Shown: positions 51,730 through 53,340 of the stretch, piece by piece
How the letters are laid out: each line of letters opens with the position of its first letter
Numbering within the stretch: position 1 is the first letter of the stretch
Origin: Persicimonas caeni
Lineage (GTDB): Bacteria > Myxococcota_A > Bradymonadia > Bradymonadales > Bradymonadaceae
NCBI RefSeq assembly: GCF_006517175.1
Contig: NZ_CP041186.1
Coordinates: 3,437,074-3,501,073 of the forward strand
Direction: 5' to 3'
Length of the DNA: 64,000 nucleotides
The notes under the pieces: model-generated
Seen by the model: only the letters and a program-made list of their open reading frames with translations
What the model was told of the DNA's origin: nothing
Database searches by the model: none
Made by a program: the position numbers and the translations under genes

Positions 51730-51829
51730 CGGTGGACCCGTTGGGCTGGTGTCGCAAGATGCCCTCTTTGTCTCACGAATCGCCGCGCCGGTCCAGAGAT
51801 TCGAAAGGCTCCTCGGTCGCCTCGGCGGC

Positions 51830-52228
51830 AGTGCTTCGAGCGCTGGTGGTTTTGGAGGCAGCGCTTCGAGCGCTGGTGGTTGTGGAGGCAGCGCTTCGAG
51901 CGCTGGTGGCTTTGGAGGCAGCGCTTCGAGCGCTGGTGGTTTTGGAGGCAGCGCTTCGAGCGCTGGTGGTTTTGGAGGCAGCGCTTCGAGCGCTGGTGGT
52001 TTTGGAGGCAGCGCTTCGAGCGCTGGTGGTTTTGGAGGCAGCGCTTCGAGCGCTGGTGGTTTTGGAGGCAGCGCTTCGAGCGCTGGTGGTTTTGGAGGCA
52101 GCGCTTCGAGCGCTGGTGGTTTTGGAGGCAGCGCTTCGAGCGCTGGTGGTTTTGGAGGCAGCGCTTCGAGCGCTGGTTCCAGACCAAGATGGTCTGCCTC
52201 CAATGGCTCGACCAGACCAGGACGGTCT
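51830..52228. repeat. Left REP-like hairpin array: 12 type-A plus 2 type-B
   Basis: Type A: hairpin AGCGCT-TCG-AGCGCT every 30 bp, first at 51830 (one variant base) and last at 52160, separated by the 15-base linker GGTGGTTTTGGAGGC. Type B: hairpin AGACCA-AGA-TGGTCT at 52181 and a variant at 52214, period 33, linker GCCTCCAATGGCTCGACC. Read on its opposite strand, type B is preceded by the same TTGGAGGC as type A, so the A and B blocks are inverted relatives meeting near 52175. Confidence 0.92.
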
Positions 52229-52345
52229 GCCTCCAATGGGTCCACGATCCAAACAGCCACCATAAAGAAATTTCGCCCCTAGACCCCCGCCACGCCCCGA
52301 TCTCCGCCAAACGCACGCAACAAATCGCCCGTTTCTGCCGAAAAC

Positions 52346-52385: not shown

Positions 52386-53036
52386 GTGAAAAACTACTTC
52401 GACTACTCAGGCCCGCAACGCTTCCGTCGCGGGGAGTCGCTTCCGCACCTCGAGGTCGATGGCGGGATCTACTTCGTGACCATTTGCCTCCAGGATTCCA
52501 TCCCCAAAAAACAACTCGCCCGCTTCAAAGCAGAGCGTGAAGAAGAGCTGGAGCGTCTCAAAAAGCAGAAGAAACTCACCAGCAAGACTCGCCAACTGGT
52601 CGACGATGGATACTTCGAGAAGGTCGACGGAGTCCTCGACCAGGGCCACGGATCGATGCTACTGCAGCGCGACGATGTAGCGCAGATCGTCGCCGACGCC
52701 TTCGAGTACTTCCACCGCGACCGCTACGACCTCGACATGTGGTCGATTATGGGTTCGCACGCCCATCTGACGCTCCAAACGCGCCGCGGGCATTGGTTGT
52801 CCGACATCATGCACTCGTGGAAGTCCTTCACCGGCAACGAGATCAACAAGCTCGTCGGGCGGGAAGGCAAGCTCTGGCAGGCGGACTTCTACGACCGACT
52901 GCTTCGGTCGGAAGAAGAGCTGGCCGAGAAGCGCAAGTATGTTTGGAGGAACCCGGAGGCCGCGGGGTTTAAGGAGTGGAAATGGCGCAGACAATACCCC
53001 GACCGGTGGTCCAAAGACGAGGAGAAAGCCAGCTAG
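52386..53036 (+). CDS. REP-associated tyrosine transposase (RAYT, Y1/HUH family)
   Basis: 216 residues; GTG start with AGGAG six bases upstream (an earlier in-frame GTG at 52350 has none). HUH motif H125-A-H127 in WSIMGSHAHLTLQ; catalytic Tyr185 in KYVWRNPEAAGF. Also typical are GGIYFVTICLQD, the SWKSFTGNEINKL block and LWQADFYDRLLRSEEEL. RAYTs are single-copy domesticated IS200/IS605-like enzymes that bind and cleave REP hairpins as single strands. Loop Ala between the His residues and Ser in place of Asn before them are deviations from MPNHVHLL but keep the metal ligands. A Lys/Glu-rich helix (FKAEREEELERLKKQKKL) is inserted near residue 45-65. The right array begins about 20 bases after the stop. 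Confidence 0.92.
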   Translation: MKNYFDYSGPQRFRRGESLPHLEVDGGIYFVTICLQDSIPKKQLARFKAEREEELERLKKQKKLTSKTRQLVDDGYFEKVDGVLDQGHGSMLLQRDDVAQIVADAFEYFHRDRYDLDMWSIMGSHAHLTLQTRRGHWLSDIMHSWKSFTGNEINKLVGREGKLWQADFYDRLLRSEEELAEKRKYVWRNPEAAGFKEWKWRRQYPDRWSKDEEKAS

Positions 53037-53056
53037 GAAAGGTCGCCATTGCAGGC

Positions 53057-53314
53057 AGCGCTTCGAGCGCTGGTGGTTTTGGAGGCAGCGCTTCGAGCGC
53101 TGGTGGTTTTGGAGGCAGCGCTTCGAGCGCTGGTGGTTTTGGAGGCAGCGCTTCGAGCGCTGGTTCCAGACCAAGATGGTCTGCCTCCAATGGCTCAACC
53201 AGACCAGGATGGTCTGCCTCCAATGGCTCGACCAGACCAAGATGGTCTGCCTCCAATGGCTCGACCAGACCAGGATGGTCTGCCTCCAATGGCTCGACCA
53301 GACCAGGATGGTCT
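53057..53314. repeat. Right REP-like hairpin array: 4 type-A plus 5 type-B
   Basis: Type A hairpins (AGCGCT-TCG-AGCGCT) at 53057, 53087, 53117 and 53147; type B (AGACCA-NGA-TGGTCT) at 53168, 53201, 53234, 53267 and 53300. Units and spacing are the same as in the left array, but the proportions differ (4:5 here, 12:2 on the left). It ends about 25 bases before the stop codon of the first lipoprotein. Confidence 0.92.
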
Positions 53315-53340
53315 GCCTCCAATGGCTCGACCACTGGATC

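Follow-up and report, generated by a model that had tools for sequence, protein, structure and literature searches.

A putative REPtron with GGAG-tagged hairpins in Persicimonas caeni and a RAYT residue that varies with the tag

What does a RAYT read in its REP, the guide or the stem? This open question, for which experimental recognition data come from three systems (PMC8266576), is touched by a natural swap of guides and stems in the genome of Persicimonas caeni, of which we analyzed a stretch of 64,000 nucleotides (the window). Here, direct tandems of two hairpin types, with periods of 30 bp (type A) and 33 bp (type B), lie on both sides of one gene.

The gene, the arrays, and the anatomy of the repeat

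The upstream type A array (positions 51827 to 52177, plus strand) contains 12 REPs with the T-type stem CGCT-TCG, 11 of which carry a GGAG guide, the guide starts running from 51854 to 52154. It is faced by two type B REPs on the minus strand (52179 to 52234; A-type stem, ACCA/ACCG), whose guides occupy 52201-52198 and 52234-52231. On the other side of the gene, four type A REPs (53049 to 53164, plus strand), three with a guide (starting at 53081, 53111, and 53141), face five type B REPs (53166 to 53333, minus strand), with guide starts at 53188, 53221, 53254, 53287, and 53320. The guide is missing from the outermost type A copies (near 51827 and 53049). The last type A and first type B REPs upstream form a junction (52154 to 52201) with hairpins 2 nt apart, and a second junction lies at 53141 to 53188. 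The first-pass annotation had called these junctions, placed near 52175 and 53162, head-to-head, in agreement with the published naming, in which tags on the outside define the HH arrangement (PMC3733652). Prediction of cleavage sites by the CT/CA rule found no C in the type A linker and no single conserved dinucleotide in the flanks.

The gene between the arrays (52386 to 53036, plus strand, GTG start) encodes a protein of 216 amino acids that matches the RAYT family NF047646 with 71.2 bits (E value 8e-20), which is under the curated NCBIfam cut-off of 80 and also under the Pfam cut-off. A profile of relatives matched 4ER8, the structure of a RAYT bound to a REP hairpin, at 1.9e-8. An AlphaFold model of the protein (pLDDT, 91) likewise had 4ER8 as its best structural match (Z score, 14.9; 133 residues aligned). 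The sequence carries the HuH motif H125-A-H127 (codons at 52758 to 52766), a tyrosine, Y185 (52938 to 52940), at the aligned position of the catalytic one in E. coli TnpA_REP, and a W-Q-x4-D-R-x2-R motif. The guide-reading motif WQADFYDR extends from W164 to R171 (52875 to 52898), with R171 as the equivalent of E. coli H101. Two defining properties of RAYTs are thus found, namely, a HuH motif and a single catalytic Tyr in a Y1 fold, and REP-like hairpins on both sides of the gene that also occur dispersed over the genome.

The genome, a single contig of 8,047,206 bases, holds 22 NF047646 matches, among which the window RAYT and a paralogue with 62% identity form a close pair. This second RAYT (G000:C1:5453046-5453687; L047, L066) has REPs with a GGTG guide on its flanks, so that each of the guides GGAG and GGTG adjoins its own RAYT paralogue. 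We also observed a third, more distant RAYT (L073; G000:C1:4723057-4723425; 35% identical), whose neighboring array consists of GCGGGCG-TCCC-CGCCCGC hairpins with GGGG in front. Among the larger Y1 transposase copies (L031-L052, open frames of about 330 amino acids or more), many carry the palindrome CGGTGTC-W-GACACCG near one gene end; it seems tied to these genes rather than dispersed, since 1.66 Mb of tiles contained no more than three copies.

Types A and B had been described as sharing a ten-base flank in opposite orientation, next to 6-3-6 hairpins. The shared sequence is indeed there: at 52136-52210, and again at the 53141-53188 junction, type A (TTTTGGAGGCAGCGCTTCGAGCGCTGG, plus strand) and type B read on its complement (ATTGGAGGCAGACCATCTTGGTCTGG) have TTGGAGGCAG in common. 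The hairpin needs redrawing as 7-3-7, because the CAG assigned to the flank pairs with CTG to give 7 bp around a 3-nt loop, or 8 bp if the G·G mismatch adjoining the guide is counted. The shared flank therefore consists of the four-base guide GGAG, one base of the G·G mismatch, and CAG pairing with CTG. Among 64 distinct copies from 1.66 Mb, T at position -2 was conserved (62/64), but T at -1 only in 43/64, and the constancy of GGAG and CAG in this set was required by the scan pattern. When the guide was not required, perfect 7-bp/3-nt hairpins numbered 726 in 1.66 Mb, and GGAG preceded 80 of them, against 19 for the runner-up tetranucleotide. This excess places the guide at GGAG, followed by the mismatch and a stem starting at CAG; the active part of the flank is most likely GGAG rather than all ten bases. 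A few copies in this genome, GGAGCCAG, carry a C-G first pair in place of the usual mismatch (G000:C1:733063, 1003871, 2750399, and 3229440) and are possibly older copies.

Together, these results identify both hairpin types as copies of one mobile-repeat family (REP1) with a common tag, GGAG, which is probably read by the neighboring RAYT. The locus as a whole is very probably a REPtron, that is, a gene for a HuH-Y1 single-strand-DNA transposase flanked by its own REPs, copies of which are scattered over the chromosome. The palindrome is no more than 2 nt away from the tetranucleotide, as in the published definition of REPs, which requires a GT(A/G)G tag (PMC3686654, PMC2817692), whereas the tag here is GGAG. 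Abundance and a mainly intergenic location are also part of the published picture; the copies counted here number 182. We regard the GGAG and GGTG families as a variant of the REP/RAYT system, since the fold and the layout are those of REP/RAYT, and the GT(A/G)G tag and the NCBIfam score are not.

Guide base 2 and residue 101 among relatives

A single-protein search of genome contigs returned nothing, but an alignment-based search did find relatives. Viral contigs contained no relative, and plasmids contained one distant match. In a related genus (G008), a RAYT with 52% identity again lies beside tagged REPs, with 121 matches to GGAGNCAG..CTGG in that genome versus 10 for the control; a C-G pair stands there where REP1 has the G·G mismatch. 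A tblastn impression that the G008 gene was a pseudogene was discarded, as its core frame is open and its profile match contains no stop. The guides found among relatives were GTAG/GTGG, GGAG, GGTG, and GGGG. The 58 relatives compared point to a link between the tag used and a single residue of the RAYT.

Among the 59 RAYTs with a callable guide, His occupied the equivalent of E. coli position 101 in 19 of 22 GT-guided proteins and in none of 37 GG-guided ones (P = 1e-12 by a Fisher test, which ignores relatedness). Ambiguous guides (L058, L222/L308, L323, and L352) and duplicates or near-duplicates (L328, L359, and L346) had been left out of this set, and the guides of L054, L066, and L219 were assigned by hand from inspected repeats. 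As the guide idea was formed by eye on the older loci, only a later set, 73 regions fetched from the genomes of these loci and put through a fixed guide caller, provides a fair test: here, His was present in 5/5 GT-guided and 0/15 GG-guided RAYTs (P = 6e-5 by the same test, again ignoring relatedness). The residue found in place of His beside GG guides was mostly Arg, and also Thr, Gln, or Cys.

E. coli H101 is among the residues that interact with GTAG (PMC6006769). We tentatively propose, at slightly under an even chance, that RAYTs are of two kinds, GT-guided and GG-guided, between which several switches have occurred, and that residue 101 (His for T; Arg, Thr, Gln, or Cys for G) is a main determinant of guide base 2. 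Arg by itself does not specify G, because three GTAG-guided RAYTs from one clade have Arg at this position and Arg has also been reported there for part of the members of subclasses whose REPs are tagged GT(A/G)G (PMC6006769). A more cautious wording is that none of the 59 RAYTs combined His with a GG guide.

The link might instead reflect shared ancestry, the residue merely marking clades, which we consider a serious possibility, at somewhat under an even chance. In a tree built with the motif masked, guide and residue need five changes each; with only about five guide changes, two or three of them forced by starred branches, a significant phylogenetic test was out of reach, and a sign test on independent pairs was indeed not significant. 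These few independent changes speak for ancestry, as do the three Arg/GTAG exceptions and the fact that column 178 separates the guides almost as well. Against it, residue 171 was the best guide separator of 166 columns, followed by 178, 168, 169, and 29, and of these, 171, 168, 169, and 29 lie in or near the guide-contact regions of the E. coli protein (beta1 and around beta4; PMC8266576, PMC6006769). Moreover, the window clade, which has 100/100 support, forms a single GG group surrounded by GT neighbors, and His is absent from it and from other nested GG groups but present in the GT neighbors. Column 178 (52917-52919 in the window) has His in 32/37 GG-guided and 0/22 GT-guided RAYTs and Glu (E178) in the window RAYT; it is a possible second guide-linked position.

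The covariation among the 59 RAYTs narrows the guide question to one residue, which can be swapped in vitro. GTRG-based searches would miss GGAG and GGTG REPs, and if the division into GT- and GG-guided RAYTs is true, GG-guided REPs are widespread among REPs and have escaped surveys of this kind. With a residue-guide rule, guides could be deduced from the protein sequence, and GG-type REPs that have been overlooked could be found.

One guide with many stems

The pattern GGAGGCAG-N11-CTGG, which fixes only the shared flank and the foot, occurs 182 times in the 8.05-Mb genome, compared with 2 occurrences of the reversed control, and in each of 56 relatives 0 to 10 times, about chance level. The copies have many stem types, at least six of them common. 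That the stems differ in sequence, as first described, holds only for p5, p6, and p8 of the eight positions; p2-p4 and p7 (C-G), and the TC of the loop, are nearly constant (64 distinct copies, 1.66 Mb), p2-p4 of the 5' arm being required by the scan. We counted covariation in unique copies from two genomes with a search pattern that left the inner stem positions free. In these copies, 88.8% of cells were paired and two-sided changes numbered 59 versus 19.6 in shuffles, and the pairing values were much lower when the partner was slid. Three stem pairs covary (p5, p6, and p8). The inner stem pairs thus change with compensation and the flank stays unchanged, as anticipated by the first-pass annotation.

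The same annotation had named stems kept without their flank as the observation that would count against it. In 1.66 Mb, AGCGCT-TCN-AGCGCT has GGAGGC in 33 of 35 places, the two exceptions being an isolated hairpin and a degenerate outermost array copy. The stem core GGGCATCTTGCCC often occurs without the REP1 flank, mostly in the GGTG-guided second REP family, which has the flank TTCGGTGCG and counts 314 strict copies of TTCGGTGCGN...TCG in the genome. The presence of the same stem core under two flanks indicates that guide and stem are separable. The genome thus offers a natural swap: many stems go with one guide, and a single stem core goes with two guides, each guide next to its own RAYT paralogue.

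The suggested BIME-like pairing is found genome-wide: we counted 44 facing pairs, with gaps between hairpins of mainly 1 to 3 or 24 nt. Taken with the RAYT gene between the arrays and the tetranucleotide at the REP guide position, these doublets bear out the proposed parallel between the flank and the guide recognized by RAYTs. Two different stems were present in 43/44 facing pairs of the strict REP1 set and in 13/13 facing pairs of the second family (sampled tiles). DNA folding of natural facing pairs preferred local hairpins in 21/37 cases and one long hairpin in the remainder, and that of identical pairs made in silico preferred local hairpins in 0/74. A preference for heterodimers is known, and unexplained, in many REP families (PMC3733652). 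Selection for heterotypic pairs, suggested by a raw shuffle (P = 0.00015), is not proposed here, since the excess was not significant once pairs were collapsed to distinct architectures (P = 0.22) and common descent suffices. At G000:C1:1511833-1511868 and 7438191-7438226, REP1 matches on both strands overlap and resemble fused facing copies.

It is unlikely that specificity resides in the stem types, each having or having had its own RAYT, with the shared flank inherited from a common repeat ancestor. In its favor, published work pairs each RAYT with a REP family of its own (PMC6006769), and altering the stem lowered cleavage somewhat for Sm and Mb (PMC8266576). Yet at least six common stem types share GGAGGCAG, and in the scan GGAG REPs lie within 1.5 kb of only 1 of the 22 NF047646 matches, the window RAYT. 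The compensatory stem changes beside a constant flank and the single stem core under two guides also argue against it. Reading the repeats as terminators, RNA stabilizers, or protein-binding palindromes without a link to a transposase, amplified by replication slippage, would suit short G+C-rich hairpins in tandem, and 30-bp tandems can arise by slippage, but it is highly improbable given the genome-wide dispersal with the tag on the 5' side, the two RAYT paralogues, each amid its own tagged family, in a layout repeated in a related genus, and the absence of a T-run after the hairpins, on which the terminator reading was rejected.

Most likely, the RAYT recognizes the REP as folded single-stranded DNA, by its guide together with the TC loop and the constant CAG/CTG at the foot. 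For the middle of the stem, pairing alone would matter, and one RAYT could therefore serve many stem types. On this model, the window RAYT would cleave and mobilize REPs, and Arg171 in place of His would allow guide base 2 to be G instead of T.

Comparison with known REP systems

The locus resembles the E. coli REPtron with TnpA_REP (group 2, PDB 4ER8) in that a HuH-Y1 RAYT with the same fold and W-Q-...-R guide motif is flanked by facing REP pairs with a tetranucleotide guide at the hairpin foot, and in that one RAYT goes with several REP subtypes (Y, Z1, and Z2 in E. coli). It differs in its guide (GGAG instead of GTAG), in its short stem, which lacks the E. coli bulge, and in the protein, which has Asp instead of Glu at position 100 and Arg instead of His at 101.

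As for the REPINs of Pseudomonas fluorescens SBW25 (PMC3116915), the dispersed unit is an inverted REP doublet with an invariant outer part. In SBW25, the two ends are identical in sequence, and a single hairpin is the predicted fold of the doublet, whereas here the arms share guide and foot and their inner stems differ. Tag, palindrome, head-to-head dimers, heterodimers, and tandem clusters are common to our families and to the GTAG- and CGTC-tagged REP superfamilies (PMC3733652), but GGAG and GGTG are absent from the tags described there (GTAG with GY/GTR/GTM variants, or CGTC). Nearest to our system are the REPs with short hairpins that go with group 3 RAYTs, exemplified by those of Stenotrophomonas (REPtron Sm), which have a stem of about 8 bp, a 3-nt loop with an important base, a tetranucleotide alongside, and hundreds of copies; their tag is GT(A/G)G, whereas the REPs of the window have GGAG and a foot with a G·G mismatch.
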